Source: a virus
Direction: 5' to 3' (one strand)
DNA: 50,807 nt
Virus record (IMG/VR): IMGVR_UViG_3300028592_000019
Location: 1-50,807 of that record
Shown here: positions 8,216 to 36,741 of the stretch, in pieces
Layout: the number at the start of each line of letters is the position of its first letter
Position numbering within the stretch: position 1 is the stretch's first letter
Made by a program: the position numbers and the translations under genes
The notes under the pieces: generated by a model
Database searches by the model: none
Told to the model about the DNA's origin: nothing
The model's input: only the letters and a program-made list of their open reading frames with translations

Positions 8216-8487
8216 GGCTGTCTGCTCCACCAAAGCGCATGTTGAGTAAGGACGAGGCCGCGAGCTATTGCGGCTTCACCTCTACAGCACGCTTCGAATC
8301 CGCCGCCCGACCGCATGTCCCGCCTGTGAATTACGGCAACTGCGTCCGCTATGACCGTGTCCGCCTCGACGAATGGCTAGACACAATGACCCAATCATCG
8401 GCATCTGATGATAGCGACATCATCGGAGCCGCCTTCCGTGCTGGTAAAGATCGTGGGCATAAAGCAATACACCGACCGGCACGGTAA
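8212..8487 (+). CDS. Probable excisionase / AlpA-like HTH protein
   Basis: A 91-aa protein with a winged-helix start: Met-Leu-Ser-Lys-Asp-Glu-Ala-Ala-Ser-Tyr-Cys-Gly-Phe near residue 10, then Pro-Pro-Val-Asn-Tyr-Gly and Arg-Tyr-Asp-Arg-x-x-Leu-Asp-Glu-Trp-Leu, the pattern of MerR/AlpA-type HTH proteins. It overlaps the integrase start by 80 bases in another frame, the usual xis-int arrangement. Confidence 0.78.
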   Translation: MRLSAPPKRMLSKDEAASYCGFTSTARFESAARPHVPPVNYGNCVRYDRVRLDEWLDTMTQSSASDDSDIIGAAFRAGKDRGHKAIHRPAR

Positions 8488-10157: not shown

Positions 10158-11087
10158 TCACTTGTCGATCTCGATGGCCTGAACGGTCGCGTGCCGGAGC
10201 TTGTCGCTGCCTTTGAGGTGCCGAACCGTGGCCCGCATTCCCGGCCGTAACCATGTGGCGGTCTTGCGGCCAGTCCCAACGATCGGCGGCTGCGATACGC
10301 CGCTGAGCTCCACATAGCGCCAGAACACATCACGCAATGACTTTGGCAGCGATACAAAGGCTGCGCCGCGATAGCCCACGCCATCGGCCAACAGGGCGTA
10401 GGGAACGCCGTCTCGGTCCTTATCGACGCCTATGACGTCGAACGTCTCGGTGTGCCAAGCCTTGATCTTGAGCCACGATCTCGTCGCCCCGGAGACATAG
10501 AGGCTGCCCTTACGCTTCGAGACAATTCCCTCAAGACCCATCTGATCGACCAGCTTGAAGAAGTCAGCGCCGTCCCCATCGTACTCGTCGGACATGTGGA
10601 TCTGGCTATGAGTGCCTTCTAGAATCCAGCGAAGATGGGCGCGGCGTTCTTCCAGTGGCTTACGGCGCATGTCGACGCCATTGAGGTGCAACAGGTCGAA
10701 GGCGAAGAAGATCAGCCGCTCCGGCGTCTTGGTCATGGCACTGCGTAGAGCGCCGAAGTCGGTGACCCCATGCTCGTTCTGAACACACACCTCGCCATCA
10801 ATCAGCGCAGATCGGCAGTCTATGCGAGCGGCGCCCGCAACGATGCGCGAATATTTCTCGGTCCAGTCATGACCGTTGCGCGTGTAGGCACGGACCTCGC
10901 CGCCGCCAATGGCTAGCTGAGTGCGGTTGCCGTCGTACTTGATCTCATGCAGCCATTCGCCGCCGTCCGGCGGTTCATCGACAAGCGTCGGCTGCATGGT
11001 CGGGATGAACTTCGGTAGGATGAGGGTAGATTCAGAGTCTGTGCGGGATCGCCGCTTTGTGCTGGGGGCCGGCGTCAGCGCGGCCAT
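10158..11087 (-). CDS. ATP-dependent DNA ligase (LigD/LigC ligase-domain type)
   Basis: A 309-aa ligase. Motif I Glu-Ile-Lys-Tyr-Asp-Gly-Asn-Arg with Lys50 as the adenylated residue; Asp-Gly-Glu-Val motif near 98; Phe-Phe-Ala-Phe-Asp-Leu-Leu motif near 127; Glu-Gly-Ile-Val-Ser-Lys motif IV near 185; Trp-Leu-Lys-Ile-Lys motif V near 205; a C-terminal OB domain. The sequence is closer to the bacterial NHEJ-type ligase domain than to T4/T7 ligases. No Ku gene is seen. It lies downstream of the lysis genes and is separate from the replication operon. Confidence 0.92.
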   Translation of the reverse strand: MAALTPAPSTKRRSRTDSESTLILPKFIPTMQPTLVDEPPDGGEWLHEIKYDGNRTQLAIGGGEVRAYTRNGHDWTEKYSRIVAGAARIDCRSALIDGEVCVQNEHGVTDFGALRSAMTKTPERLIFFAFDLLHLNGVDMRRKPLEERRAHLRWILEGTHSQIHMSDEYDGDGADFFKLVDQMGLEGIVSKRKGSLYVSGATRSWLKIKAWHTETFDVIGVDKDRDGVPYALLADGVGYRGAAFVSLPKSLRDVFWRYVELSGVSQPPIVGTGRKTATWLRPGMRATVRHLKGSDKLRHATVQAIEIDK

Positions 11088-17544: not shown

Positions 17545-18066
17545 CTAGATCACGTGGCCGCAGAAGAAGGTTGATCCGGTCCCGCCGCTGATTGTCGCTG
17601 AGCCGCCGCCTGTTTCGAGATGGAAGACGTAGACCTCGTAGTAATCCGTCCCGTTCGCATCATCGATGAAGGTTAGAGGGAGATGCACTTCGCGGTTCGA
17701 CGGGCGATCACAGCGGCTGCGGGCAAGCTCGGTGCCATTCTTGTAGATCGCGGTAATGATCGTCGGGCAGTCGTTGGCATTGGCCACGAAATGCGCCGCT
17801 GCGGAGAGCAGCACTTTGCCGGCTGGCGGCGTCCACTTGTCGGAACCGAAGAGGTTCCCGACGTCGAAAGCCTCAGTCGACCAGGTCAGCTTGGTGAAGG
17901 CGTTGTAGGCCACGCCCGTCTGGTTGGTGCCGTTCTTGTGGACGCGAAAAGTCGGCCGCGCGTATAGCTCGTCGAAGTTCGCATTTATCTTCTGGAACGC
18001 TGTGCGCGCTGGGTCGCCCGTGCCGTCGTTGGCGGTAGTGCCGACTGCAACTGTCTGCTTTGCCAT
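17545..18066 (-). CDS. Tail fibre protein with C1q/TNF-like domain
   Basis: A 173-aa protein. The N-terminal Gly-Thr-Thr-Ala-Asn-Asp-Gly-Thr-Gly-Asp with Ala-Phe-Gln-Lys-Ile-Asn-Ala-Asn-Phe-Asp-Glu-Leu-Tyr is a common phage fibre attachment motif. From about residue 45 the pattern of aromatic strands with Trp-Thr-Pro-Pro-Ala-Gly-Lys-Val resembles C1q-like jelly rolls. It shares one base with the tail tip gene's stop. Confidence 0.78.
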   Translation of the reverse strand: MAKQTVAVGTTANDGTGDPARTAFQKINANFDELYARPTFRVHKNGTNQTGVAYNAFTKLTWSTEAFDVGNLFGSDKWTPPAGKVLLSAAAHFVANANDCPTIITAIYKNGTELARSRCDRPSNREVHLPLTFIDDANGTDYYEVYVFHLETGGGSATISGGTGSTFFCGHVI

Positions 18067-20183
18067 TACATTTCGTCCGCGGTGTAGCCGGTCGTGTCGG
18101 CTTTGATGAGGGAGTTATCGCCGCGGAATTCGGTCGGGGTGACCGCCGGGCCGGTAGCAACGGGAGAAGCCGCGACACCAGAGGAGTTGATTGCGACGAT
18201 GAAGCCGTACCGCAACCCTACGCCGAGCCCGCTGATGGTCCGACTATCCGGAGCGTTCGGAGCGCCGTATTCCGTGGCCGCCAACGTGGCGCCGACAAAG
18301 GTGTTGCTGGTGTTCCAATATAGGCGAGATCCCGCGTAGTTCGGGCTGTTCGGTGCGGTCCAGAAGTAGTTGATAACGCCGTCGCCACCCGTCGCACTGA
18401 CGGCCACCACTGGGCCCGGAGCGACAGGATCGGCCACGACTACCAAAGTTTGGTAGTCAGTCCATTCCGAGGGCGTGCCGGCTGACCAGGTCCTGGCGCG
18501 GAAGTCAAAGGACACGCCATCAGTCAAATAAAGGCTACGAACCTCCAACTCCCCGGAGGCGCCGAGGCGTTGCTGAGCCGCCCCCCCTGCTGTTGGCTTC
18601 CATTCCAGCTCGTACTGGAAGTTCTCATTCTGAAAGTCGAAAGTACCGATGGCGAATGCGGCCGTTGCGCCACCAGAGATAACTTCGGTGTCGATCATGA
18701 CTTCGAAGTTGAGGGGCACAGGGACTTCCTGGCGCTCTACTGGGTTGACGTTGTACCCTGGGACGCCCTCTTCCAATGATGCGCTGAAAGCGTAGAGGGT
18801 CGGCGGAACGACGATGCCTTCGAATTGCACAGTGAGGTTCCGAAGAGATCGGACTGGACGCCCCGTGACCTCAATAATGTCCATGCTCAGTCGTGGGGGA
18901 TAATGGACCCTGATGAACCGGCGATAGGGAATAGGCTTGTCCGGATCATAGTGCGCCGTGATGGTTACTCGTGGTGCATTGGCCCGGATGTAGGCGAGCT
19001 TTTGCATGCGGGCGATATGGTTGTGAGACTGGACACACTGGTTATCGACGGTCTTGGTGCGCTCGTCGTCGGTCGGATAAGGAATGCCATAGATCGCGGC
19101 ATCCGTTGTGTTGAAGCCCTTCTCCGGATCGCTGTACCGACCGCGCACAGCCAGAGTGCTGGTGTTCAGGCGCTTGTTTGGATCATAGCTTACAGCAACG
19201 ATATCGTTGGCCGTGAGCAGAATGTCCGGCTCGACAAGAGATCCAGCGTGAACGCCGACCTTGCCGTCTGGCCGCTCGTAGAGCACCATATCGGCCGCCT
19301 GATCCATGATCCGTCCGACTTCCACTGGGTCATTGTTGGCGCGGAACCAGAAGCCACCGTGATAGCGGTTCTCCACCACGCCCAGCCGGTTAGTAACGCC
19401 TTGGTCGCAGACGTTGGCCGCGTTGATCCAGTCCGGCATGTAAACGTCGTTCAGGGTAAGCTTGCCGCCGACAGGGTGCGTCAGGTGCCAAAGCCGAAAG
19501 AGCGCGATATTGCGCGTGTAGCCATAGGTGCCAGTCCGAGGATCATAGATGCGGTTATGTCCCTCGATCACGGCCGAATGCGATGGCATGCCGTGCGGAT
19601 AGACCGTCTGTAGTTCTTCAGTCGGGACCGAGCCGACATACATAAACACACTGGCCAGACCGTCGCCCCTGTGATCGTTGGACCAGATGTCGGGGAAGGC
19701 GTCGACCACCGTGGCATATGCCGAGGACAGATCAGCGCCGAGGCGCTCTTGAAGGGAAACCCGGTTCGTCAGCCTCTCGGGCGAGGTGATCACGCCGTCC
19801 ACGATCGTGACCGGCTCGTCGTGAAGGTAATGCACGAGGAATGCATGGATCGAATGCGCCGCCGTCACCATGATATGGTAGGCGATGCCGTTCCGCTCCT
19901 CGAGAAAAACGTAGTCTCCGGCCTTCTTCGTCTTGCCCAGGACATAGACGAGCGGAGGCACGGTCTGCTTGAGATTGTATTTTCCGTCTTCAGGCTTCGG
20001 GGCGCCCGGTTTCGGCGGCGCAAAGGCCTGAGAGACGAGATAAGCCGCGCCGGCGAGCAACAGATACGACGCACCAAGCGCAATAGCGCCCACCGACGCG
20101 CCGAAGGCGAGCGTCGGCAGCCCAACGGCGAGCAGCGCATTGGAAATCCACGGCACAAGGACCGTGGCCAGAGCTTGAGGCAT
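18066..20183 (-). CDS. Tail tip / host-specificity protein (J-like)
   Basis: A 705-aa protein. Two hydrophobic N-terminal segments (about 8-55, Ala/Gly-rich), then a large central part with Tyr-Val-Leu-Gly-Lys and Tyr-His-Ile-Met-Val-Thr-Ala-Ala-His typical of central tail tip proteins of alphaproteobacterial siphophages, and a C-terminal fibronectin type III-like domain (about 595-690). It would close the tube and carry the fibres encoded downstream. Confidence 0.85.
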   Translation of the reverse strand: MPQALATVLVPWISNALLAVGLPTLAFGASVGAIALGASYLLLAGAAYLVSQAFAPPKPGAPKPEDGKYNLKQTVPPLVYVLGKTKKAGDYVFLEERNGIAYHIMVTAAHSIHAFLVHYLHDEPVTIVDGVITSPERLTNRVSLQERLGADLSSAYATVVDAFPDIWSNDHRGDGLASVFMYVGSVPTEELQTVYPHGMPSHSAVIEGHNRIYDPRTGTYGYTRNIALFRLWHLTHPVGGKLTLNDVYMPDWINAANVCDQGVTNRLGVVENRYHGGFWFRANNDPVEVGRIMDQAADMVLYERPDGKVGVHAGSLVEPDILLTANDIVAVSYDPNKRLNTSTLAVRGRYSDPEKGFNTTDAAIYGIPYPTDDERTKTVDNQCVQSHNHIARMQKLAYIRANAPRVTITAHYDPDKPIPYRRFIRVHYPPRLSMDIIEVTGRPVRSLRNLTVQFEGIVVPPTLYAFSASLEEGVPGYNVNPVERQEVPVPLNFEVMIDTEVISGGATAAFAIGTFDFQNENFQYELEWKPTAGGAAQQRLGASGELEVRSLYLTDGVSFDFRARTWSAGTPSEWTDYQTLVVVADPVAPGPVVAVSATGGDGVINYFWTAPNSPNYAGSRLYWNTSNTFVGATLAATEYGAPNAPDSRTISGLGVGLRYGFIVAINSSGVAASPVATGPAVTPTEFRGDNSLIKADTTGYTADEM

Positions 20184-21455: not shown

Positions 21456-22168
21456 CACACACCTCCTGTGGCCAGATTATTCCAATAGTCGACAGCTTCG
21501 ACAAACTCGACCGACGCCGCATCAATTTCGACGTTCGAGAGTGCGAGATCCATTCCGCGATCATCAACCAGACGGCACAGGCACGTCGGGCGATCCGCCT
21601 CAAGCTGGGCATCAACAGGGATGGCTTTTCGGATGGCCGGGAACACCGGCACCTGGAAGGTGTCGTCGTCGACCTGCTGAATGATGGGGCCGGTCTCATA
21701 CAGCGCGTGCTGGTAGCTGAAACGAATGCCGACAGGAGAACTAGCGCTCACCAGTTGGATTGTTATGACCGTAGCCGCGAGCGGGGCAAATGTCGCCATG
21801 CGGACATCGATGGCCCCTTGGCTGTAGCTCGTGCCATCGTCAAAGGTCGTCTCATCGTCGTGCGGTGAATAGACCAAGGGCTCACGATGTCCGGAGGGAT
21901 ACGGCGCGCTGTCGAAAGACCAGGCAGGAACGGTCACAAGTCCCGCCCTGCCCCCCAATTGGGTTCGAATGGCATTCCACGTGCGGCGCATCGCGGGCTT
22001 GTATACGGTCACATCTGACAGCGTAATCCGCCAGAATCCACGGTCGGTGCGAGCCGTCGGTTCGATGCCGCCCAGAGAGCGCCCGCCCGACCGCGTGAAG
22101 GGCACCATCGACGCAGTTGCCTTGGCCGGGCGGAGCAGCTTCGTCGGCCAATGGATGTAGTCTGCCAT
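21455..22168 (-). CDS. Distal tail protein
   Basis: ATG 22168 in a TGATG overlap with the tape measure gene; 237 aa. Beta-rich, with Arg-Thr-Asp-Arg-Gly-Phe-Trp-Arg-Ile-Thr-Leu and Trp-Asn-Ala-Ile-Arg. The gene position directly after the tape measure is that of the Dit-type protein in siphophages. Confidence 0.72.
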   Translation of the reverse strand: MADYIHWPTKLLRPAKATASMVPFTRSGGRSLGGIEPTARTDRGFWRITLSDVTVYKPAMRRTWNAIRTQLGGRAGLVTVPAWSFDSAPYPSGHREPLVYSPHDDETTFDDGTSYSQGAIDVRMATFAPLAATVITIQLVSASSPVGIRFSYQHALYETGPIIQQVDDDTFQVPVFPAIRKAIPVDAQLEADRPTCLCRLVDDRGMDLALSNVEIDAASVEFVEAVDYWNNLATGGV

Positions 22169-24081
22169 CACATGGTCCTATAGTCAGAGCCCGCACGCTG
22201 TTCTTGATACTTAGCAACGGCAGCCGGCGCTGTTTTGTTGGCTTGTGCTACTGCCACCTGAGTACCTGCCGCTGCGGCCGTCTGCGCCTCTTGGCGCGAG
22301 ACCGACTTCACGTATGCCTGCAGCTTGCCCTCATCATCGATCGAGACGCCGACGTTGACATGCATGGAGCCGCCGCCATTGCTGTTCGCTGCAACGCCGA
22401 GCTTCCCATCTGCACCGCGCCGCAGTGGCATGATGGCCTCCGGCCCCGCCTCTCCCATGAGCCCTGCCCCATTGGCCATCGGGAACAGCGTGGGACTGTT
22501 GACGATGCCGCCGCGGGCGAAAGGCTGGACATGACCGCCGCTGAACACGCCGCCGTCTGCAAAGCCAAAGAGCGAGCCTATCATTCCGAAGATACCGCCG
22601 AGCCCGCCCCCGCCACTTCCGCCCATGGAAAAGAGGGCGTCAACCAGGTTGGTCTCGATCTTGTCGATGATCTTGTCCAAGACGCTCATCCCGGCCTGGC
22701 CGAATGCCTCCCAAAAAGAAGCTCCGTCGCTTAATCCCTGCCGGAGATCGGACAGGAACCCCTTGGTGAGGTCCTTGCCAAACTCGAAAGATTCTTTGGC
22801 CTTACGTGCAGCCTCTTCTGCAACGGCCATGGCCTGAGCGAGGGCACCGAGTTCTTCGGTCTGCTGCGGAGTAAGCTTGATATTGTCGTTGGCTGCCTGG
22901 TTGAGCAATTCCTGCTCGTGACGCAGCCGGCCCATCTCGACGGCGGTCATGCCGATCATCTCGATCTCAAGCTCGGATTGATCGATGCGCTGTTGCGCGC
23001 TGCGAACAATGTCTTGATACGCCTCTGCCTGCTTCTGTGCGGCACTGGCTGCCCTCTTCAGCGCATCTTCGTCCGGTGCCGACGCGTTCTTCTGCGCCTG
23101 GCTGGAGACCGCACCAAAGAACTCACCCATGAAGTCACGCTCTTGGAGCGCGCCAACTGTACGGGCATAGGCGCCCCAGCTTTTGTTGTAGTCCTCCATG
23201 GCTGCAGTGCCGCCAAATTCGATCTTGCCAAAGCTCACCGGACCCAGCGCACTGATGACCTCTTGGCCTGCCATCTGGTTGATACCGCCGATCAGCGAAT
23301 TGATGTTTCCGATGACCGAGTTGATGCCGTTGGCAATGGCATCTGCGAAACCTTGCGCAGCGGCCTGCCCCGCGATGATGAAAGCGGCCGGCACTGTGCT
23401 GATGCTGGTCTTGATGTACTCGATCGATCCGACGATGTTTCGGATCATCGCGTTGCCTGCGTCCTTGGTGGCGCCCACGACCCAATCCCAAGCATCAGAG
23501 AACCAACCGCCGATCATGTCAGTGGCAGGCTTGATGAACTGGTAAATTCCGCCCGCGATCACCTGGAAGGTAGCCAGGGCTACGTCCCCGAAGCCAACAG
23601 TCACCTTGGACGTCTCATTGATTTCGTGGGTCATGCCGGCGAAGGCCAAAGACACGGCACCGACGACGGCAGCAACTGGCCAAAACGTCGTCACTAGGCT
23701 CTTGCCGATACCAACCAGGCTATCGATGGCTGGTTTTAGCCCGAACTGCAGCATCTGCGGCACCTGCTGCACTGCGACGATCAGCGGCGACATTCCGGAC
23801 GCTAGCGAGACGCCGATATCGTTGAGCTGATAGATCATATTGGTGCGCACCTGCGTACCCATGCGCATGGCAGCGTTGTTGGCCTGAATAGCGGCAGTAT
23901 GCGCGGCCGTGGCTGCAGTGGCGGCCTTCTGACCGACCGCCTCAACCTGCGAAGCGCCTGCAAGCTGCCGGGCAGCAGCAGAGGCCTGTCCCGCGGCGCC
24001 GGTAAGCTGGTGCAACGAGACCGTGCCCTTTTCGACCTGAGACGAATCCACTGCGAGGCCAAGACGTGCGACGTCGACCAT
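22168..24081 (-). CDS. Tail tape measure protein
   Basis: A 637-aa protein: Ala-rich helical N-terminal part, hydrophobic middle segments (about 100-165), coiled-coil-like region (about 340-430), and a C-terminal Gly-Gly/Ala-rich part with Phe-Ala-Asp-Gly-Gly, Phe-Ala-Arg-Gly-Gly-Ile-Val and Gly-Glu-Ala-Gly-Pro-Glu-Ala-Ile-Met-Pro-Leu, hallmark repeats of tape measure ends. At about 0.15 nm per residue the tail would be near 95 nm. It follows the frameshifted chaperone gene, as expected. Confidence 0.93.
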   Translation of the reverse strand: MVDVARLGLAVDSSQVEKGTVSLHQLTGAAGQASAAARQLAGASQVEAVGQKAATAATAAHTAAIQANNAAMRMGTQVRTNMIYQLNDIGVSLASGMSPLIVAVQQVPQMLQFGLKPAIDSLVGIGKSLVTTFWPVAAVVGAVSLAFAGMTHEINETSKVTVGFGDVALATFQVIAGGIYQFIKPATDMIGGWFSDAWDWVVGATKDAGNAMIRNIVGSIEYIKTSISTVPAAFIIAGQAAAQGFADAIANGINSVIGNINSLIGGINQMAGQEVISALGPVSFGKIEFGGTAAMEDYNKSWGAYARTVGALQERDFMGEFFGAVSSQAQKNASAPDEDALKRAASAAQKQAEAYQDIVRSAQQRIDQSELEIEMIGMTAVEMGRLRHEQELLNQAANDNIKLTPQQTEELGALAQAMAVAEEAARKAKESFEFGKDLTKGFLSDLRQGLSDGASFWEAFGQAGMSVLDKIIDKIETNLVDALFSMGGSGGGGLGGIFGMIGSLFGFADGGVFSGGHVQPFARGGIVNSPTLFPMANGAGLMGEAGPEAIMPLRRGADGKLGVAANSNGGGSMHVNVGVSIDDEGKLQAYVKSVSRQEAQTAAAAGTQVAVAQANKTAPAAVAKYQEQRAGSDYRTM

Positions 24082-25020: not shown

Positions 25021-25749
25021 TTATCCGAGCGGCGCAACGCGCACGGTGTTGGTGTTGACTTCCACCGTCGCCTGAAGCTGACGGACGTTGTTGGGCCCGC
25101 CGAACGCCTCGGTGGCGCCAGTGACAAGTCCAACGAAGTAGCGCTTGGACGGCACAGGCTGGGTCGTGGCGGTTTGAACGCCGGAGCCGACGGAAGATGT
25201 GTTGACGACCGTGCCGCCCGGAGTGGCGGAGACCGTAAACGTGTTCACGTCGAGCACTGTCTTGACGTAATAGGTCGTACCAGCGGTGAGGCCAGTGGGC
25301 AGCGCGCCAGTGGTCGAGAACACAACCGGCGTGTTGGCAACAAGGCCATGGCCTGTCCAAGTGACGACGCCTGGCGAGGCATTCGAAATCGTCACGGTCG
25401 CCGACTTAGGCACCGGAGGATCATTCAGGTCGACGCGGAACGGGTAGTTGTAGACGGTCTTTTCGGCCGCCAGCAACGCGATTTGGCCGGGATCGTTGAT
25501 TGCGACGGCGAAGTTGTCCTGGCGCGAAGGCGCGTTGCGAGTGCCCTTCTGCTTCATGTCACGGCCGCGATCAATCAGCGGCGTGGTGATCAGCGCGGCA
25601 GCATCGCCCAGCGCGCCGGCTTCCATGTAGTTCTTGACCTCAGTCCAGACGACCGAGGCGAAGTCGGCTTCCGTGACATCAACGTCCGGCAGTTCCATGG
25701 CAGGGCCGATAAAGAACTTGCTCCCGGCAACGGGATAGAGCGTGGCCAT
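25021..25749 (-). CDS. Major tail tube protein with inserted Ig-like domain
   Basis: A 242-aa protein. Residues 1-115 and 195-242 look like one tube fold (Ser-Lys-Phe-Phe-Ile-Gly-Pro, Arg-Gly-Arg-Asp-Met-Lys-Gln-Lys-Gly, Tyr-Phe-Val-Gly-Leu-Val-Thr). Between them, about 116-195, is a Thr/Val/Gly-rich beta module with Gly-His-Gly-Leu and Tyr-Tyr-Val-Lys, typical of surface Ig-like or adhesion inserts. The insert would project from the tail shaft. Confidence 0.88.
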   Translation of the reverse strand: MATLYPVAGSKFFIGPAMELPDVDVTEADFASVVWTEVKNYMEAGALGDAAALITTPLIDRGRDMKQKGTRNAPSRQDNFAVAINDPGQIALLAAEKTVYNYPFRVDLNDPPVPKSATVTISNASPGVVTWTGHGLVANTPVVFSTTGALPTGLTAGTTYYVKTVLDVNTFTVSATPGGTVVNTSSVGSGVQTATTQPVPSKRYFVGLVTGATEAFGGPNNVRQLQATVEVNTNTVRVAPLG

Positions 25750-26249: not shown

Positions 26250-26465
26250 ATGGCCGACGATAAACCGCTCAACGACAATCAGGTCCACGACCGCCTTCAC
26301 GCGGCCATGGAAGCCCTTGGCAATGCCGATGGCGAAACCGTTCATGGCGACACGGCGCTGAAGTCTGCGCGCCGTTCGCTGATGTTGCTGCAATTGGCAG
26401 TGGTGACCGCTCAGGCCAAAGGCGATGCGGTAAACGACAATCTCAAAGGCCCAGTCGAGCCCTAA
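26250..26465 (+). CDS. Antisense small protein set between tail genes
   Basis: A 71-aa ORF on the plus strand that fills the 212-bp gap between two minus-strand genes and overlaps the gp10-like gene end by 23 bases. The protein is hydrophilic and helical with two Asn-Asp-Asn tripeptides, and its composition is like a real protein, whereas the minus strand of the gap has no convincing gene. No clear ribosome site. Unknown function; possibly a moron or a regulator of the late operon. Confidence 0.55.
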   Translation: MADDKPLNDNQVHDRLHAAMEALGNADGETVHGDTALKSARRSLMLLQLAVVTAQAKGDAVNDNLKGPVEP

Positions 26466-26859
26466 CCTCGGCCGCCTTCGTGGCGACAATGCTTTCCCAG
26501 CGCTGCGCTACCATCGAGACCCAAGGCCTGCCGGGACGACCATTCGCACCATAATGGACATAGGCGGCATAGTTGGCCGTGTAGCCGAGATAGAGCACGT
26601 CGCCCGCCTCGGTGCCGGCAATCACCAGCACGATCTCTGCCAATCCGTCAGTACCGGGACCACCCGGGTTCTCCCGTGTCAGCGCCGGCATTGCTGTGGT
26701 CGATGCCATGAGGCTGTTGCGCAGAAAGCCGGTGTCGAACGGCACCAGCGAATTAAGCTCGGAAACAAGCTCTTGCGCCGCTTCCCGGAAGAGCACATCA
26801 AACGCGCCCTCGACCTTTCGTGCCCAGCCCTCAATGGTGGCGCTGAAGCTGTCAGTCAT
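26443..26859 (-). CDS. Neck/tail-completion protein, HK97 gp10-like
   Basis: A 138-aa protein. Pro-Phe-Asp-Thr-Gly-Phe-Leu-Arg-Asn-Ser at about 40-49 and a later Tyr-Ala-Ala-Tyr-Val-His-Tyr-Gly with Gly-Arg-Pro-Trp-Val are the signature of the HK97 gp10 family of head-tail joining proteins. Confidence 0.88.
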   Translation of the reverse strand: MTDSFSATIEGWARKVEGAFDVLFREAAQELVSELNSLVPFDTGFLRNSLMASTTAMPALTRENPGGPGTDGLAEIVLVIAGTEAGDVLYLGYTANYAAYVHYGANGRPGRPWVSMVAQRWESIVATKAAEVRARLGL

Positions 26860-27136: not shown

Positions 27137-28174
27137 CTACGCCGCGCGCCGCGCCAGCAACTGGCCGGTATAGTCGACCTTATACTCGACAGTGCAGCGA
27201 CAACCACTCGTCTCGCTGATCGGCGCCGACGGATCGCCGGGAAAGCGCAAAGTTGCGCCTGATTGGCTCTGGAATGAGCCGTAGAAGCCCACCTCGGCAT
27301 TGTTCAGAGCCCGATGGGTATGCCGCACCCGGTTGTCGCCTGCAGAGCGCCAGCGCTTCGTGATGAACATCGGATCCACCTTGCCGGAAAGGACCGCCTG
27401 TTTCATCGCATCGTCTCGCGACTTGCTCAGCGCAGTCATGGTTTCGGTGCGGCTCAGCATCTCGCCGCGGAGAGCCAGAAGCCGGTCGGCATAGCGCCCG
27501 ACCATCCGGTCAACCGTAGCCCGATCGAGCCCCCTGCCCTCAGCAATGGCCTTGCGAACGGCGGCATCAAATCTGCGGTCTCGGCGCTCCCTCGTCAGAT
27601 AGTTCCGAAGGGCTGCAGGATCGCCGGAAGTAAGCTCCTGACGGGCGGAAGCGACAAACCGCTCCTGCGGTGCAGTCAGGCCAATAACGCCGCCTGTACG
27701 GCTCCCTGTGGCGCGGTTGACCCTGCCCACGATATCCAGAGCCGTGGCGCGGGGATTGTTACCTTGGGCAAGCCCTTCAGTCAGCGCCGTGCGGATGGCT
27801 TCGCGCTGGTCGTCCACGATGCGCGTCACAAGCTGGGCGCTGTGGTCCCGAAGCCATGCCTCGGCCTCCGGATTGCGAACCCCGAAGCGGAAGGCAATGC
27901 GGCTGCCATTCGGATCGCGCAGAACCATCGAGCCCGCCATGTCGATGCCGCCAGCATTGTAGGCATCGCCGATGGCTAGTTCGAGCCGACCGAAGGCTTC
28001 GGCCTCGATCTGAAGCACGTCGATCGCACCAGCAATGTCGCCTCGCTCCAAGCGCTCCACCAGCCGCTTCAGCACGACCTGGTCTTTGATCTCGTTGATG
28101 GCGGCGAGGAAGGCGTCGCGGATCAGAGGCTCGTATTTGTCGAGAAGCTGTTCCAGCGCAGAACGGTTTGACAT
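27137..28174 (-). CDS. Head morphogenesis protein (Mu F-like minor capsid)
   Basis: ATG 28174 gives 345 aa. The C-terminal 120 residues carry Leu-Ser-Arg-Thr-Glu-Thr, Lys-Arg-Trp-Arg-Ser-Ala-Gly-Asp-Asn-Arg-Val-Arg-His-Thr-His and Cys-Arg-Cys-Thr-Val-Glu-Tyr, the conserved set of the SPP1 gp7/Mu F family. It usually follows the portal gene; here it is separated from it by the capsid genes. Confidence 0.88.
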   Translation of the reverse strand: MSNRSALEQLLDKYEPLIRDAFLAAINEIKDQVVLKRLVERLERGDIAGAIDVLQIEAEAFGRLELAIGDAYNAGGIDMAGSMVLRDPNGSRIAFRFGVRNPEAEAWLRDHSAQLVTRIVDDQREAIRTALTEGLAQGNNPRATALDIVGRVNRATGSRTGGVIGLTAPQERFVASARQELTSGDPAALRNYLTRERRDRRFDAAVRKAIAEGRGLDRATVDRMVGRYADRLLALRGEMLSRTETMTALSKSRDDAMKQAVLSGKVDPMFITKRWRSAGDNRVRHTHRALNNAEVGFYGSFQSQSGATLRFPGDPSAPISETSGCRCTVEYKVDYTGQLLARRAA

Positions 28175-28218
28175 TGACCCTCGAATCCTTCCCACATTGA
28201 GAGATGGGGGACATTTAG

Positions 28219-29007
28219 ATGCAGATTTTTTTAAGCCACACCGCCGCCGACAAGCCTGTAGTTGAGCCAATTGCTATTCGGTTGGCCGAGATATTTGGGC
28301 AGAGCAGCGTCTTCTACGACGCTTGGTCAATCCAGCCTGGGGACGGCATCATTGACAAGATGAATGAAGGGCTCGCATCGCCAGATTTCTTGTTTTTCTT
28401 CGTGTCGTCAGCCAGCCTCGCAAGCAAGATGGTCAACATAGAATGGCAGAACGCGCTTTACTCGTCCTCTAAGGGGAAGGTGAAGATTGTGCCGGTTAGG
28501 GTAGACGGGGCGTCGATGCCAGCCGTTCTGATGCAGAACGTCTGGATCGATTTATACGGGCAAGGCCTTGAAGTGGCGCTGCAGCAAATTGTGAGTGTCA
28601 TTCAGGGGATGAACACATTCACCCCGCAACACCTTGGGTTCTCGAACCTAACTTGGTCCCAGTCAGAGATCGATGCCAACACAGTTCTTATTGAGGTTAG
28701 GGCATCCCACCTTATGGAACCAAACCCAATGGTGATGATCCTCACGCCCAGTGGGCAATCTGACCTGAATTTTGTTCTGGCAGATCAAAGCCCGCACCGT
28801 GGCGGATTCAATCCAAGCGTCGGAAACTTAACTGACGGCACCCCGCTGAACGGTATTGCTGTTTGTCCGCTGGGCGGCGCGATCACGCCCAAACTCCCCC
28901 TACGAATACACGTCCTAAAGGTATCAGAACGACCGGTTGTGATAAGTGGCGTCTTCCACCAAGAGGGCACCAACGCATGGAAGCCCTTACCGCAGGTCAC
29001 TAAATAG
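28219..29007 (+). CDS. TIR-domain protein with unknown C-terminal domain (moron)
   Basis: A 262-aa protein on the strand opposite to all surrounding virion genes, with a GGGGGA ribosome site. Residues 1-95 are a TIR domain: Gln-Ile-Phe-Leu-Ser-His-Thr-Ala-Ala-Asp, then Val-Phe-Tyr-Asp, Pro-Gly-Asp, Ser-Pro-Asp-Phe-Leu-Phe-Phe-Phe-Val-Ser, and Asn-Ile-Glu-Trp-Gln-Asn-Ala with Glu75 as the expected NAD-cleaving residue. Residues 130-262 are beta-rich and not recognised. The gene is visibly richer in A+T than its neighbours. It diverges from the head gene with a 44-bp gap. Likely role: NAD depletion or signalling against other phages in the lysogen; this is inference. Confidence 0.85.
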   Translation: MQIFLSHTAADKPVVEPIAIRLAEIFGQSSVFYDAWSIQPGDGIIDKMNEGLASPDFLFFFVSSASLASKMVNIEWQNALYSSSKGKVKIVPVRVDGASMPAVLMQNVWIDLYGQGLEVALQQIVSVIQGMNTFTPQHLGFSNLTWSQSEIDANTVLIEVRASHLMEPNPMVMILTPSGQSDLNFVLADQSPHRGGFNPSVGNLTDGTPLNGIAVCPLGGAITPKLPLRIHVLKVSERPVVISGVFHQEGTNAWKPLPQVTK

Positions 29008-29419
29008 CCAAATCCAAATCGTAGAGCACCGCCACGCCAGCCGGAACCAACGGACGCACGGCCATGATCTGCTCCCATGCCAATGCGGCATCGGTCTCGG
29101 CATCGACATAGTCGAGCGCCTGGCCCAGGACGATCTTGTCGTCGTCGCTGGGCACCACACCGGCAGCGGCTGAAATGGTGATGGTCCGCTTGGTCATCCC
29201 GATCAGCGTGCCGTTGATGTCCCTCAGTTCCTTGTCGGACTGAAGGACGATGACCTTGTGATAGGTCGGCGTGCCGTTGGGCGGTTCCCATGGCTGTGGC
29301 GGCGGGCCGCTGGGATCCTTGCGGATCGTGGCGGACTGCTTGCCGGGCTCGTTGACATCCGCGATGGAAGCAAGCGCGCCCTCGACCTCGGCGGCGATGC
29401 TGGACCAGTCTTCTGCCAT
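29000..29419 (-). CDS. Head-tail joining region protein, unknown
   Basis: A 139-aa protein between connector genes. N-terminal helix, a Pro-rich loop at about 36-52, then beta strands. Convergent 8-bp overlap with the TIR gene. Position suggests a neck or completion protein; no family assigned. Confidence 0.72.
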   Translation of the reverse strand: MAEDWSSIAAEVEGALASIADVNEPGKQSATIRKDPSGPPPQPWEPPNGTPTYHKVIVLQSDKELRDINGTLIGMTKRTITISAAAGVVPSDDDKIVLGQALDYVDAETDAALAWEQIMAVRPLVPAGVAVLYDLDLAI

Positions 29420-29420
29420 C

Positions 29421-29900
29421 TCACACCACCAGAATGGCGGGGAAGCCGCCTACGGGCATCAAAAACGGCACCAATAGGCCTTCGACGGCAGAGAGCACCG
29501 GGATCATCGCCCCGGGAGCGCTGGCGTCGCCAATAACATCCCATTCGATCTTGTCGACCTTCGTCAGCACCTTCGTCGTGCCAGGCGTGTAGGTCACCGA
29601 TAGCGAGCCCGGCGCCTTTGCATCGGCCAGAGCTGCCACATAGCTCGCCTTGACCACGGCATCAGGGATCACATCATCGCCAATCGGCTGCCCATATGCG
29701 CAAGCCCCGGTCCGAGGCCACGCCCGCTCCTGAGAAAAGCCACCGGTGGGGATGCCGGAGAACCGAGCGCCATAGGTGCCGTCGATGTAGTTCGAGCCGC
29801 GCTCACGAAGTACCGCGATAGACGGCGGATTGTCGGGGAGAGCAAACCCATTTGCGGAGAGCCATCTATTGAAGCCGTCATCGGTGCCGTAGCCAGCCAT
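29421..29900 (-). CDS. Head completion protein (DnaT-like family)
   Basis: A 159-aa protein. Phe-Asn-x-Trp-Leu near residue 10, Gly-Ser-Asn-Tyr-Ile-Asp-Gly-Thr-Tyr near 36, Arg-Phe-Ser-Gly, Trp-Pro-Arg-Thr-Gly and Pro-Asp-Ala-Val-Val-Lys-Ala-Ser-Tyr match the phage family often labelled DnaT-like, which acts as a head-tail connector rather than in replication. Confidence 0.82.
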   Translation of the reverse strand: MAGYGTDDGFNRWLSANGFALPDNPPSIAVLRERGSNYIDGTYGARFSGIPTGGFSQERAWPRTGACAYGQPIGDDVIPDAVVKASYVAALADAKAPGSLSVTYTPGTTKVLTKVDKIEWDVIGDASAPGAMIPVLSAVEGLLVPFLMPVGGFPAILVV

Positions 29901-30430: not shown

Positions 30431-31393
30431 TCAGGCCGGCGGGGCGGTAACTTCATCCGCATAGGCGGCAGACTTCGGCAGGCGCCATTCGGTGCCACCG
30501 GTACGGGCGATGATGCCGGTTTCGAAGCCCATGATGGACTTCTGGCGCGGCTGGAGCACGGTGCGGGGCATCGGGAGGTGGAAGCGAACGACCTCCTCGT
30601 CGCGGCGATACGCAACCATGCGACCGCCACCGTCCTGCGAAGCCGTTGCCAGTTCGCGAGCGCCGTAGATGTTGAGCGGCTGGCCAGTTTCGAGGGTGTA
30701 GACGTTGTTCTTGCGGATATAGTCGAGCACCGTGATCGTGCCGTCACCGCTACCCAGGCGCTTGGTGCCGGCGGCACGGATCGCAGCAGGGGGCAGAGCG
30801 AGCGAGTCAGCCCACTCCACTTCCGAGGTCTGCGTCCGCACACGGCTCAGAACCTCGTCAACGTCGGTAAGGATCTGGTCGGCCGTCTTGGCTGGCCAGA
30901 ATGTGCCGGGCGTTGCAACATCAGCGCGAGGGACTTCCGAACTGTTGGCAAAGCCAGTCCAGTTCTTTTCGGTCGAGCCGACGAAGGCGATGGAGTTCAG
31001 AAGGCGCTCCACCTTGTCGGTGGCGCTCATCGCGTCGGTGTTGCTGAGATTGAGGCCATAGAGCGCGGCCTGATTGATCTCTTCGATGGTCCATTCCCAC
31101 CCGGAGCCGATCATCGCAAAGTCGTGCGATGCCTGGTCCTTGGTGGTCTTGTTGAAGGGCATATCAGTGCCCGACCCGGAGATGAACTTGGCTTCACCGG
31201 CACTATCGACCGAGAAGAAGGTCGTGCCGATAGCCCATGCGTTGCCTTCGGTGATGACGGGGATAACCGCCGCATAATTGAAGGTTGGATACCGGCGCTG
31301 ATAGACGCGGGTTTCGATGTTGCGCCCCTGCGCGATCACGAAGGGGTAAGCAGCCTGAGCGTCAGCAAAGGGCTGGCGGATCATCTGGTTCAT
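30431..31393 (-). CDS. Major capsid protein (DUF2184 type)
   Basis: A 320-aa protein: Arg-Tyr-Pro-Thr-Phe-Asn-Tyr near 34, Ile-Gly-Ser-Gly-Trp-Glu-Trp-Thr-Ile-Glu-Glu-Ile near 96, Asp-Lys-Val-Glu-Arg-Leu-Leu-Asn near 127, and a C-terminal Gln-Lys-Ser-Ile-Met-Gly-Phe-Glu-Thr-Gly. These fit the HK97-fold DUF2184 capsid family, which comes with DUF2213 protease and a cement protein, both present upstream. High expression is expected. Confidence 0.92.
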   Translation of the reverse strand: MNQMIRQPFADAQAAYPFVIAQGRNIETRVYQRRYPTFNYAAVIPVITEGNAWAIGTTFFSVDSAGEAKFISGSGTDMPFNKTTKDQASHDFAMIGSGWEWTIEEINQAALYGLNLSNTDAMSATDKVERLLNSIAFVGSTEKNWTGFANSSEVPRADVATPGTFWPAKTADQILTDVDEVLSRVRTQTSEVEWADSLALPPAAIRAAGTKRLGSGDGTITVLDYIRKNNVYTLETGQPLNIYGARELATASQDGGGRMVAYRRDEEVVRFHLPMPRTVLQPRQKSIMGFETGIIARTGGTEWRLPKSAAYADEVTAPPA

Positions 31394-32179: not shown

Positions 32180-32740
32180 TCAGTTCGCCTTGGCCTGATG
32201 CGCCGACGTCATGTCGGCAAGCATCGCGGCGCGGGCATCGTTGACGGGCTTGAGATCGTCGGCAGTGGGCGTCAGCCCATCAGCAACGACTTCGCGGAAG
32301 GGGTCCTTGTCGCCAGCCTTCTTGACGGCATCCTCGACCAGGATTTCGAAGCGGGCGTCGATATAGGCTTCGGGCTTGTCCTTGGCGGCATCGCCAACAA
32401 CAGCCACGACCACGGCCTTCTTGATGTCGGCATCGGACAGACCATCGGTCTTGACGTCCTTGGCCAGCACCTTGGCCTTGCCGATCAGGTCGGCGCGGGA
32501 GGCGACGAGCTTGTCGATGGCAGCGGCGTCAAGCACCTTGCTCTTGAGGGCGTCGATTTCGGCGTCCTTCTTGGCAATGTCGGCATCCTTGGCTGCCAGC
32601 GCAGTTGCATGATCTGCCAGAACCTTGACGGATGCATCATTGGCATCGGCAAGGCGCTTCTGGAGGGTGGCGATGACGGTGGCGCCCTGGTCGGTCACTT
32701 CGACCGGGATGCCATCGACAGTTACCGTCTTCAGGGTCAT
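32180..32740 (-). CDS. Nested scaffold protein (internal start in the protease gene)
   Basis: ATG 32740 (codon 198 of the protease gene) has AAGGA seven bases upstream and begins the 186-residue helical scaffold part in the same frame. This would give a free scaffold in excess over the protease, as with lambda C/Nu3. The start site is visible; its use is inferred. Confidence 0.6.
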   Translation of the reverse strand: MTLKTVTVDGIPVEVTDQGATVIATLQKRLADANDASVKVLADHATALAAKDADIAKKDAEIDALKSKVLDAAAIDKLVASRADLIGKAKVLAKDVKTDGLSDADIKKAVVVAVVGDAAKDKPEAYIDARFEILVEDAVKKAGDKDPFREVVADGLTPTADDLKPVNDARAAMLADMTSAHQAKAN

Positions 32741-33331
32741 TGGAGGGTCCTTTTCAGGGGTTGCGTCAGTGATCGGGGCAGCGCCCCAGGAATACGCACC
32801 GTCACCGATGCGAAGCTGGTCCCCGCCGCGTGCCTTCTCGACAATCGCGACGTGGTTCATTTTGAAGTCGGACATGATGGCGTCGTACGCCTCGCCCGTT
32901 GGGCTGATGCCGTCGCCCAGCGTCACATTGGCGTCGTAGCCCATGGACAACTCGACTGCGGCGCCGGACTCGACCGTCTGGATGCCCTTGGCATCGCGGA
33001 GCATCATGGGGACGCGGACGAACTCACCGTCGCGCATCACCTCATCGCCCACCTCGCCTACGGCAAGGTCTTTCCAGGTATCGGCTGTGACCTTGACCGA
33101 TGGGTGGCCAATGGTGATGGGCACGCCAGCATAGGAGCCGATGGCGTCCTTCTTGAAGACCTCACTCTCGGGCCTGTAGACGCGCACCACGGCCTTGTCG
33201 GTGATGCCAAGCTCTACCCCAAGGTAGGCTTGCACATTGCCGCCACGAGCCACCTTTGCCGATGCTACGGCATAGCCATCCGCTGTCCGACGCAGCGCGC
33301 CGTCCATCGTCATCCGATCGGTGAATTGCAT
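32180..33331 (-). CDS. Prohead protease-scaffold protein (DUF2213)
   Basis: A 383-aa protein. The N-terminal 190 residues hold the protease part: Ile-Gly-His-Pro, Glu-Leu-Ser-Met-Gly-Tyr and Met-Asn-His-Val-Ala-Ile-Val, the conserved Gly-His-Pro, Ser and Asn-His motifs of DUF2213. Residues 198-383 are Ala/Lys/Asp-rich helices typical of a scaffold. Cleavage of the capsid precursor and of the scaffold is the expected role. Confidence 0.9.
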   Translation of the reverse strand: MQFTDRMTMDGALRRTADGYAVASAKVARGGNVQAYLGVELGITDKAVVRVYRPESEVFKKDAIGSYAGVPITIGHPSVKVTADTWKDLAVGEVGDEVMRDGEFVRVPMMLRDAKGIQTVESGAAVELSMGYDANVTLGDGISPTGEAYDAIMSDFKMNHVAIVEKARGGDQLRIGDGAYSWGAAPITDATPEKDPPMTLKTVTVDGIPVEVTDQGATVIATLQKRLADANDASVKVLADHATALAAKDADIAKKDAEIDALKSKVLDAAAIDKLVASRADLIGKAKVLAKDVKTDGLSDADIKKAVVVAVVGDAAKDKPEAYIDARFEILVEDAVKKAGDKDPFREVVADGLTPTADDLKPVNDARAAMLADMTSAHQAKAN

Positions 33332-33334
33332 GGG

Positions 33335-35209
33335 TTATTCCTCGGTGAGCCCTTCGGCCCAATCCTCTTTGACCTCGGCAAACAGTTCCGGCCCCAGCAC
33401 GATCTCGCCCTGGTACGGTTCCACCTTGCTTAGATCCCCCTTGAAGCCATAGCTGATGGTGATGTGCGGCTGGTACTCGGGATGATCCCAAGACCCACCT
33501 GCCTCGGTCACCGCCTCATTGCGCCAGCGCAGTTCATTGGCAGTGAACAGCAGGACTGTGGCCTCCCCGAACTGTTCCATGAGACGTGGTCCACCGGGAC
33601 CGACCTTCAGTTCCGGTGCCCACGACTCCCCGACGCGCATCCAATCAACCGGCGTCTTGCTGTAGGCGATGGTGACGTGCAGTTCATCGGCCGGCAGCGT
33701 GGTTTCGAAGCCCTGCGACTTGGCCCAGGCGATGATAGCGCCGGCGTTCTTGACCTTGCGCTGAATATACAGCGAGCGTGGAGCGGCATCGTTCGCGGCC
33801 AGGCGCTGGCGCTGCTGTTCCGCAGGATCGTTGCCATTGGCAGCAACACCAAGGGCAGCGGCTTCGGCACCCTCGTCTTCCTCCTGTTCGGAGAGCTTGC
33901 CGTATTCCTCGATTGCGGCTTCTAGGCCGCTCAAGGAGCCGTCTTCTATGAGTTCGTTGACCAGAGCGTCGGACAGGGCCTCAATGGGCATCAGCGGCTC
34001 ACTGGTGCCGCCATTGCCAGCAATGACGCGGGCAGCATCAGCCTTCATCTTGAAGGTTTCAGCCTTCTCCTTTTCGGAGAGGGTGTAGAGCGGCGCCCAG
34101 CGGCTATAGATCGAAGGGTCTCGGTCACCAAGCGCGGAACGAACAATCACCTCGTCCAGGCGGTTCATGGCCGGCGTCAGTTCTGTGCGCTGCCGGGCAG
34201 CGATGTTGTCGTAATAGTTCTTGAGCGCGGTGTCGCCATTGCTGCCAAGCCCGCTGGGGGCCTGCATGAGCAGACGAGACACCGGGATATCTGCGGCACC
34301 CGAGGCGATCTCAAGGTACTTCTGCATCAGCTCGGGAAGCTGCGCGAAATTGATCTGTTTCTGCTCCCACTTCTCGCCCAGCGCCGTATCGCCGTTCGCG
34401 CCATTACCCTCGAGCAGCACCATGTTGAACATGGACTTGATCGTGTTGGCGTAGGTGAAGCGATCCGTAACCGACTTGGTGCCGGCAGCCGTGGATAGGG
34501 CCTTAGACAGACCTGGAATGTAGATGACGTCGGCCTTGGCCTCGGGGATCAATGCGGCGACATGAGCCTGTGCGGAACCGGCATTGATAATGGCGTCCCC
34601 AACCACCTGAAGGATGGAATCGCCCCAGTTATCCGCAGCGATCGAGAACCGATCATCCATGACAGGAGCGCCGATGAACCGCACCATGCGGCTGGGATGA
34701 ACCCGCACCTGCGCGCCAGTCCCGCCATTGACCTCGTAATATTCGGGCTGGCCGTAGTAGACGCTGCGCACATCGGTTATCAGCGGGCCTGTAGTGACCT
34801 TGCTGCGGTCCAGCACGTGGAGATAGAGCAAGTCGCCATGCTTGACGTTCTCGACCAGCAATTCCTTGTCTGGGGCACCGTCACGCATGCCCATGTAGAT
34901 AGCCGCGCCGCCGAAGAGCCGAGCCTTCTGCAGGGCCATAGTGACCTTGGGCTGAAGGCTGATCTCCGGCAGTTTCTCGACAGCCTCGATTGCCTCGATC
35001 TGCTCGTTCGTGGCCTGCCATTCCCGCCATTCGCGAGTCATATCGTTCGGGATGATGTCCACGACCTTGCGGGCCAGCCAGTCAGACCGGTGCATGGCGT
35101 TAAGCTGGTCATCGCCAATGGGCACAAAGACGTAGCCGAGGCTGGTATTCTTATCCTTGGACGTGCCGAGACCTGTGACCAGGCTCTTGAGCGTGTCTGC
35201 CAGCCACAT
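33335..35209 (-). CDS. Portal protein fused to an Acb1-like 2H phosphoesterase
   Basis: A 624-aa protein. Residues 1-470 are a DUF1073-type portal (Ile-Pro-Asn-Asp-Met-Thr-Arg-Glu-Trp near 53, Gly-Gly-Ala-Ala-Ile-Tyr-Met-Gly near 100, Gly-Leu-Gly-Ser-Asn-Gly-Asp near 320). After an acidic linker, residues 478-624 have two His-x-Thr motifs, His511-Val-Thr513 and His582-Ile-Thr584, each in a hydrophobic strand: the signature of 2H phosphoesterases and of the anti-CBASS protein Acb1, known to occur fused to this portal family. It may degrade cyclic oligonucleotide alarm signals. Confidence 0.9.
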   Translation of the reverse strand: MWLADTLKSLVTGLGTSKDKNTSLGYVFVPIGDDQLNAMHRSDWLARKVVDIIPNDMTREWREWQATNEQIEAIEAVEKLPEISLQPKVTMALQKARLFGGAAIYMGMRDGAPDKELLVENVKHGDLLYLHVLDRSKVTTGPLITDVRSVYYGQPEYYEVNGGTGAQVRVHPSRMVRFIGAPVMDDRFSIAADNWGDSILQVVGDAIINAGSAQAHVAALIPEAKADVIYIPGLSKALSTAAGTKSVTDRFTYANTIKSMFNMVLLEGNGANGDTALGEKWEQKQINFAQLPELMQKYLEIASGAADIPVSRLLMQAPSGLGSNGDTALKNYYDNIAARQRTELTPAMNRLDEVIVRSALGDRDPSIYSRWAPLYTLSEKEKAETFKMKADAARVIAGNGGTSEPLMPIEALSDALVNELIEDGSLSGLEAAIEEYGKLSEQEEDEGAEAAALGVAANGNDPAEQQRQRLAANDAAPRSLYIQRKVKNAGAIIAWAKSQGFETTLPADELHVTIAYSKTPVDWMRVGESWAPELKVGPGGPRLMEQFGEATVLLFTANELRWRNEAVTEAGGSWDHPEYQPHITISYGFKGDLSKVEPYQGEIVLGPELFAEVKEDWAEGLTEE

Positions 35210-36741
35210 CAGCCTGTTACTCCCAGCATGCCATAAACGAAGTGCGATTGGGCCAACTCATCGAAGGCCCGAGTTGCCGCGTCTGCCTGATCCTTGAACT
35301 TCCCATTCGGGAACGTGCAAAGCTCATCTAGAAACGGCTCAATCCATGCATCCCTTACCGGGTCGCCCGTCATTAGAATGTCGACGTTGCCGGCTTCTGC
35401 CTGAGCCGATAGCGGACCGGCACGGGTCACCTTGTCGCCACTTTCCGGGCTCGATTTGGCTGTGTAGCCGGCCAACTGCTTGACCAAGTATCCAGCCTGT
35501 GACTTGCCTGCCTGGCCGGGGTCCTGCGGCAGCGAGATCCGGCACTCCCTGCCATCAGTCGCAGCGGTGCTGAGGATCAGCCTTTCGACCCCACCAGACG
35601 AAAGATGATCTCGTACCGAATGGGCGATGATGAACCGGCCATCAGGATACCGGCCGATTTTCACCCCTGCGGTGTATGCAGCGCTGTCATCGACCGTTGC
35701 TGCCAAATCCCAACCCCGGGCGAACTCTGTGGCGGCCGGGAAGGCAGCTTTGAAGGCGAACCACGCCCGCTTAAACATACCGCCCTCACGGGGCGCGGGA
35801 CGCTGCTGGAACTGCCCCGCCGTAGCGTAGGAGCCCATAACCTTCTTGTCGCGTTCCACCACTTCACGGGGGAAGCGGGCCGGGAATAGCAATTCGCCAT
35901 CTACCCTGCGCGGATCTTCGAAACCGATGGAAGTGTAGCACTTCCGTTCCGGCTCGAACTCCATCGGCAGCATCAGATGCTCGTAGCCGAAGTCCTTGGC
36001 CAGGATCATTCCTGCCACGTCGTTCTCGTGCAGACGCTGCATCACCACGATAATCGCGGAGCGATCCGGGTTATTCAGTCGGGTCGGCACCGCCTCGCGA
36101 AACGTCTCATTGACTGCATCCCGCTTGACGTCAGACCCCGCATCATCAACCGATAGCGGATCATCGATCAGCACACGGTCACCGCGGGAGCCTGTCAGGC
36201 CCGTGAACGCCATCGCCTCGCGAAAACCGGTGGCGTCGTTTTCGAACTTGAGCTTGGCGTTCTGGTCCGACATGAGCCGAACCGTGCTGCCCCAGCGCTC
36301 CTGATACCATTCCGAGGCGATCAGGCGCCGCATCTTGAGGTTGTCGCGAATTGCCAGCGGATGGCTGTGCGACGTACCCAAATAGCGCATATGCGGGAGG
36401 CCTCGCGGCCCCCACTCCCACGCCGGCCACATCACCCCCACCGAGAGCGACTTCATCGTGCCAGGAGGGACATTGATCAGCAGGCGAGTGATTTGCCCGC
36501 TGGTGACTGCCTCCAAGTGCTCAGAGACGGCATCGATGTGCCATCCGTGCTTATACGGCTGTCCGGGTTCCAGAACGTGCCAAGCGGCCTGTGTGAACGA
36601 TGCGAGCGAGACGCCTGCGGTCTCGATATCGCGATCAAGGTTCTCCTGCGCCTGCCTCTTCTGCCGTTGCGCTGCCAGGGCTTCCAATAAGCCCGAGCTT
36701 CGCGAGAACGGGATAGGCTGCTTCGAGAGATGCAAGTTCAT
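35209..36741 (-). CDS. terL: Terminase large subunit
   Basis: A 510-aa packaging motor. Walker A-like Asn-Val-Pro-Pro-Gly-Thr-Met-Lys-Ser at 90-98, Walker B Val-Leu-Ile-Asp-Asp-Pro near 187, Gln-Arg-Leu-His-Glu-Asn-Asp coupling motif near 230, and a C-terminal nuclease domain starting at Arg-Gly-Trp-Asp-Leu-Ala near 343. The ATG at 36741 overlaps the small subunit by 107 bases; no better in-frame start with a ribosome site is seen, so the exact start is uncertain. Confidence 0.93.
   Translation of the reverse strand: MNLHLSKQPIPFSRSSGLLEALAAQRQKRQAQENLDRDIETAGVSLASFTQAAWHVLEPGQPYKHGWHIDAVSEHLEAVTSGQITRLLINVPPGTMKSLSVGVMWPAWEWGPRGLPHMRYLGTSHSHPLAIRDNLKMRRLIASEWYQERWGSTVRLMSDQNAKLKFENDATGFREAMAFTGLTGSRGDRVLIDDPLSVDDAGSDVKRDAVNETFREAVPTRLNNPDRSAIIVVMQRLHENDVAGMILAKDFGYEHLMLPMEFEPERKCYTSIGFEDPRRVDGELLFPARFPREVVERDKKVMGSYATAGQFQQRPAPREGGMFKRAWFAFKAAFPAATEFARGWDLAATVDDSAAYTAGVKIGRYPDGRFIIAHSVRDHLSSGGVERLILSTAATDGRECRISLPQDPGQAGKSQAGYLVKQLAGYTAKSSPESGDKVTRAGPLSAQAEAGNVDILMTGDPVRDAWIEPFLDELCTFPNGKFKDQADAATRAFDELAQSHFVYGMLGVTG

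Follow-up and report, generated by a model that had tools for sequence, protein, structure and literature searches.

A TIR–beta-sandwich gene lying antisense in a phage head operon is a candidate single-gene defence effector

Results

A TIR gene in the late operon of a temperate phage

The window, meaning the whole stretch of DNA analysed here, comprises the 50,807 nucleotides of IMG/VR virus record IMGVR_UViG_3300028592_000019. Judged by their sequences, the minus-strand genes around the TIR gene, from terminase to tail fibre, constitute a normal tailed-phage late operon (Table 1), and the presence of an integrase and an S24/CI-type repressor indicates that the phage is temperate. The two ends of the window form a 401-bp repeat with 95.5% identity (18 mismatches, the first 127 bp identical). 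The repeat falls within the CI-type repressor gene and suggests that the genome is nearly complete and maps as a circle, and that its assembly combines two strains.

The TIR gene reads in the opposite direction to the late operon. A preliminary description, made from the DNA letters, had reported an A+T-rich plus-strand gene at this position, and the open reading frame, its ATG start and its GC content (0.529, 9 points below the 0.620 of the flanks) all agree. Its placement between a head morphogenesis gene and a connector gene was likewise confirmed by profile matches of the neighbours, Mu F-like MuF (PF04233/phrog_3517) and Hc1 (phrog_161). MuF lies head-to-head with the TIR gene across a 47 nt gap, the start fitting its homologues being 28171 and not the TTG at 28270, while Hc1 is convergent, its stop overlapped by 8 nt. 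A scan with sigma-70 models recognised no promoter at the TIR gene, and two terminator-like sites nearby are weak, on the minus strand and at chance level.

Table 1 Features of the window discussed in the text
Feature	Position	Strand	Basis or remark
TIR + beta-sandwich gene, candidate single-gene defence effector	28219..29007	+	262 aa, ATG start; PF13676 + homologue family
TIR domain, residues 1-131	28219..28611	+	Pfam 3-123; dN/dS 0.02-0.08
Predicted catalytic Glu75 codon	28441-28443	+	Glu invariant 28/28
C-terminal nine-strand beta-sandwich, residues 132-262, putative sensor/oligomerisation domain	28612..29004	+	AlphaFold2
Accessory insertion, Hc1/MuF slot	28154..29012		Lacks nucleotide homology to TIR-less relatives (blastn vs L046-L055)
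Head morphogenesis (Mu F-like), left neighbour	27137..28171	-	344 aa; PF04233; phrog_3517 E=2e-120
Head closure Hc1 connector, right neighbour	29000..29419	-	phrog_161 E=1e-7
Head-tail adaptor Ad1	29421..29900	-	phrog_477 E=8e-23
Terminase	35209-36741	-	Late operon
Portal	33335-35209	-	Late operon
Protease	32180-33331	-	Late operon
Major head protein	30431-31393	-	Late operon
Neck	26443-26859	-	Late operon
Major tail protein	25021-25749	-	Late operon
Tape measure	22168-24081	-	Late operon
Tail fibre	18066-20183	-	Late operon
Integrase	8408-9610		
S24/CI-type repressor	3-731		
532-aa ORF	14395-15993	+	Weak codon signal
ATP-dependent DNA ligase gene	10158-11087	-	PF01068
End repeat	1-401 and 50407-50807		401 bp

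Related loci are cited below by their L numbers. The TIR gene is missing from phages whose MuF proteins are 84–85% identical to that of the window, and the Hc1/MuF slot is without it in L046, L047, L049, L050, L052 and L055. The slot measures 859 nt in the window against 36 nt in L047, where the stop of Hc1 overlaps the start of MuF (TGATG) with no insert; over 28175-29006, the 832 nt of the window compare with 219 nt in L046. Other antisense genes fill the slot in relatives, namely a secreted Rap1a-type immunity protein gene in L049/L055 (PF18602, E=3e-15; L049:2536-2871), a lipoprotein-like gene in L050 and a 68-aa ORF in L046/L052, and the TIR gene of the window is therefore one of several occupants. 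Missing from close relatives at its site and divergent in base composition, it has the marks of an accessory (“moron”) gene. Antisense genes were also observed at further head-operon junctions: one for a small protein that begins with a signal-peptide-like stretch (L046:2779-3183) and one for a lipocalin (PF08212, E=4e-48; L051:2971-3486).

Three other features of the window were recorded. Residues 480-619 of the portal protein form a C-terminal extension that matches the RNA-ligase family phrog_755 (E=2e-21) and contains HxT-like motifs (HVTIAY, HITISY) of 2H phosphoesterases. Domains of the 2H phosphoesterase type include anti-CBASS enzymes, and the extension may be a portal-fused counter-defence domain. 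The 532-aa ORF between the lysis and tail genes had no match in Pfam, PHROG or PADLOC and is a possible further accessory gene. An ATP-dependent DNA ligase gene lies near the lysis genes.

An intact TIR domain joined to a beta-sandwich

Pfam TIR_2 (PF13676) matches residues 3-123 of the protein with E=1.3e-22 and 81 bits, against a gathering threshold of 28. Residue 75 is a glutamate that, in alignments, occupies the position of the conserved Glu in TIR domains of known structure, as expected from the preliminary description, which had called the domain intact on account of Glu75. The best match to the TIR domain among PDB sequences is the TIR-NLR protein 9m0n (E 7e-6). The best defence-model matches in PADLOC are TIR-NLR and PDC-S66, both confined to the TIR part in the window protein.

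The remainder of the protein had been described as an unrecognised beta-rich domain, a view that stands: a Pfam search of the C-terminal part gave zero family matches, and AlphaFold2, run on this domain alone with 22 homologues, predicted an all-beta, nine-strand sandwich (pLDDT 90.9, pTM 0.83). A structure search of this part had been recommended. Foldseek comparison of the domain model with PDB and BFVD yielded nothing at E<=0.001, the top results being generic beta-sandwich modules with TM about 0.4-0.5, and a PDB sequence search with the domain gave no significant match. CBM3 modules appeared at E 2e-4 with TM below 0.5 when the weaker full-length model was used. With the domain model, resemblances to CBM3/cohesin-like and other beta-sandwich folds stayed at E>0.001 and TM about 0.4-0.5, so no function was assigned from them. 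A search of 398 Pseudomonadota genomes for the C-terminal domain joined to other effector domains recovered only the known member.

A family with a constant TIR half and a variable C-terminal half

Scans of IMG/VR and GTDB genomes recovered full-length relatives built of the same two parts. We aligned 24 members, which share 36-60% identity with the window protein. The preliminary description had named loss of Glu75 in homologues as the finding that would count against it; no such loss was seen, as the glutamate is present in all 28 of 28 sequences. Known hosts are Proteobacteria, including Pseudomonas alkylphenolica, a Rhodobacteraceae MAG and a Phenylobacterium MAG, with several prophage groups represented. 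The L030 prophage has Firmicutes-like composition and genes, from which its host is a probable Firmicute.

The family is sparsely distributed in the collections sampled. Ten of 5,426 E. coli genomes carry a member, and these fall into two types, one with a 100% DNA match in a single genome and the other with a 68% DNA match in nine. Random-genome samples of two classes (369 and 385 genomes) contained no member besides the query genome, and the INPHARED phages contained none. Searching the open-access literature by accession and keyword found no published family name, most subscription journals being outside this coverage.

The two halves of the protein differ in conservation. Mean identity within the family is 58% for the TIR part and 28% for the C-terminal part, and the TIR part is the better conserved in all 365 of 365 pairs. 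The window protein and its L007 relative share 82% identity in the TIR part and 38% in the C-terminal part; for L005 and L018 these values are 88% and 50%. In pairs without synonymous saturation, dN/dS ranges from 0.02 to 0.08 for the TIR part and from 0.03 to 0.47 for the C-terminal part, which indicates that purifying selection acts on each domain, less strongly on the C-terminal part. The DNA of L009 and L013 is 95-100% identical just upstream and in the early part of the gene, then falls to 55-75%, a pattern that suggests intragenic recombination. In a maximum-likelihood tree, members group by insertion-site class, and the window protein pairs with L007.

A lone add-on gene at many sites

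The family gene is a lone add-on in many unrelated prophages, in a gene-transfer-agent-like (GTA-like) cluster and, rarely, on chromosomes. It has lower GC than its flanks at all 24 of 24 loci. In Pseudomonas, members are antisense and adjoin the terminase small subunit gene. The L008 member (7992-8783) is antisense in the GTA-like cluster, where a tape-measure gene and a GTA-gp10-type gene (PF11836) flank it; its GC is 0.47 against 0.66 in the flank, and L060 holds a counterpart of the cluster without the TIR gene. The TIR gene converges with lysis genes in L007 and with the tail operon, at its end, in L009-L015, and in L002 it adjoins an integrase gene. A lambdoid E. coli prophage has its member between ren and ybcN. 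P2-type E. coli members lie between the replication gene gpA and the portal gene gpQ (3/3 inspected of nine records), an interval that Rousset et al. 2022 (PMC9122126) showed to be a hotspot with active anti-phage systems. The members in L004 and L006 are chromosomal, with phage genes absent nearby; in the former, from a Rhodobacteraceae MAG, the uvrB stop and the TIR gene overlap by 4 nt (L004:5824-8798).

No conserved partner gene was found across the family loci, the neighbours differing at nearly every site. A two-gene system with a relaxase was considered and rejected: the relaxase lies upstream in several L009-L015 members, and nothing alike occurs elsewhere. The relaxase gene upstream of the TIR gene is of the MobA type (L010:1-1191, L014:960-1289) and is accompanied in L014 by a NikA-like mobilisation gene; the arrangement looks as though a small mobilisable element had become part of the phage.

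A stand-alone NAD-consuming effector is the favoured reading

The sequence evidence points to a real gene that is probably defensive. On balance we favour, with some confidence, a lysogenic-conversion (“moron”) gene for a stand-alone TIR enzyme predicted to consume NAD and to act by abortive infection. The preliminary description had proposed a prophage-borne candidate for single-gene TIR defence. This candidacy is strengthened by the invariant glutamate, the lack of a partner, the AT-rich insertion and the occupancy of the P2 hotspot; the protective effect itself is kept as a prediction.

In such a scheme, the resident prophage would make the TIR protein at a low level and in an inactive state. 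When another phage infects, the beta-sandwich domain would bind something made by that phage, the most plausible candidate being a virion protein that forms oligomers, and this binding would cluster the N-terminal TIR domains, completing the active site around Glu75. The clustered TIR domains would then cleave NAD+, leading to growth stop or cell death ahead of progeny release. The fast-evolving C-terminal domain fits a sensor role and does not name the trigger. Alternatively, it could be a module for oligomerisation that evolves under weaker constraint. Sensing of a structural protein, as the preliminary description suggested, is a guess, and the structural-operon site is uninformative on the trigger because relatives sit in early regions, by an integrase and on chromosomes.

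Some TIR domains produce a second messenger rather than acting alone. The window protein might likewise cyclise NAD to a cADPR isomer and activate an effector whose gene lies elsewhere in the host, as Thoeris ThsB does. Messenger-type TIR sensors exist, one of them triggered by a phage capsid (PMC11312562), and ThsB profiles match some family members weakly. Against this, the top defence models are TIR-NLR and PDC-S66, not ThsB. Thoeris genes are normally adjacent, and neither a ThsA-like gene nor any other conserved neighbour was noted in a family locus. We consider a messenger role unlikely, though deserving of some weight.

A function outside defence, such as that of a secreted modulator of immunity of the BtpA/TcpB kind or of a virion component, seems improbable. 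The TIR proteins BtpA/TcpB turned up in the sequence and fold searches, but these matches are limited to the TIR domain, nothing suggestive of a signal peptide was seen by eye at the N-terminus, and members are found in environmental phages and in a GTA-like cluster, at locations patterned like those of exclusion genes. That the gene is decaying cargo with no current function, as its AT-richness, antisense orientation and absence from close relatives might suggest, is very improbable, since every member keeps an open frame and the catalytic residue and, in related pairs, dN/dS is well below 1 for both domains.

Antisense nesting and possible self-silencing

Prophages need to escape their own defence upon induction. 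Added to the stand-alone NADase reading, rather than competing with it as an alternative activity, is the hypothesis that the defence works in the lysogen and is shut down at induction by late-operon transcription passing through the gene in antisense, sparing the resident phage. Late transcription would cross the window gene antisense, so silencing of the tha-1 type is possible; tha-1 in S. aureus is a precedent for antisense control (PMC11087260). In the window, L005/L018, L017 and the GTA-like L008, the gene is antisense and lies among late genes or adjacent to them; in L007, L009-L015, L002 and the P2 group it converges with neighbouring phage genes. The TIR-less relatives of the window phage hold other antisense genes in the same slot. 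The lambdoid members (L031-L039, L041) and the Firmicutes-like L030 are, however, co-directional with their neighbours. A family rule of constant antisense orientation to the late operon was therefore rejected; antisense nesting is common in the family, not universal. Since the lambdoid members break the rule, we retain self-silencing as an add-on hypothesis and hold it to be a minority prospect.

A still more specific proposal combines the two ideas: a prophage-specialised form of pattern recognition, in which the rapidly evolving beta-sandwich would directly recognise rival virion proteins and switch on the near-invariant TIR NADase, with nesting antisense to the late operon silencing it once the carrier phage turns to lytic growth. 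We regard this as rather doubtful. If it held, L008 would extend antisense control to a domesticated phage, in the form of its gene-transfer-agent-like cluster.

Discussion

If the favoured reading is correct, these compact proteins (about 260 aa) would represent a one-gene defence family that prophages have distributed among the Proteobacteria and probably the Firmicutes. The combination of a near-constant effector half with a highly variable other half would offer a system for studying how TIR domains are retargeted to new triggers, and the E. coli members make the family directly testable in laboratory strains. The head operon slot of the window’s phage group, for its part, takes up different antisense accessory genes repeatedly. 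Decay of the TIR gene as cargo is disfavoured, as the catalytic residue is kept and dN/dS in related pairs is well below 1.

Several known systems invite comparison. The window protein resembles TIR-NLR, which is one of its top matches in PADLOC and the best one to its TIR domain among PDB sequences, but it has no STAND NTPase and no TPR repeats and measures 262 aa against 824 aa; lacking NTPase and repeats, it is not a TIR-NLR. Thoeris ThsB is also a TIR enzyme acting on NAD, an activity predicted for the window protein, and ThsB1/B2 of S. aureus are triggered by a phage major head protein (PMC11312562). The window protein differs in its extra C-terminal domain and in having no ThsA neighbour: ThsA was found neither adjacent, where MuF and Hc1 flank the TIR gene, nor among 10 other window genes scanned, and the system is therefore not Thoeris. 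The tha-1/ith-1 genes of S. aureus prophages, with antisense control of a prophage defence gene and a tail-protein trigger (PMC11087260), share with the window gene the antisense orientation to phage genes. Tha-1, however, is a HEPN RNase that has an antisense inhibitor gene of its own, and no such inhibitor was identified for the window gene.

The P2 gpA-gpQ/cos hotspot provides another point of reference, as E. coli relatives of the window protein occupy exactly that site. In the part of the hotspot study available (PMC9122126), the TIR systems tested were a TIR-NLR from P4 and a three-gene system of phage AC1 comprising a TIR and a membrane protein; a lone TIR–beta-sandwich protein is not among the systems that this part describes.

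SpbK, encoded by ICEBs1 of Bacillus subtilis, is the nearest precedent with demonstrated function, a 267-aa TIR NADase activated by binding the SPbeta portal protein (PMC11984713), and its activity depends on self-association (PMC12847820). It resembles the window protein as a single-gene TIR on a mobile element, of similar length (267 vs 262 aa) and with a conserved catalytic Glu. SpbK has an N-terminal four-helix bundle followed by a C-terminal TIR, whereas the window protein has an N-terminal TIR followed by a beta-sandwich, and the PADLOC spbK model matches one of the 24 members and leaves the window protein unmatched. With the domain order reversed and a second domain that is all-beta instead of a helical bundle, the window protein falls outside the SpbK family. 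The compact TIR–beta-sandwich family is best read as a variant on known TIR defence, in which, compared with SpbK, the order of the domains is inverted and the putative sensor has another fold.
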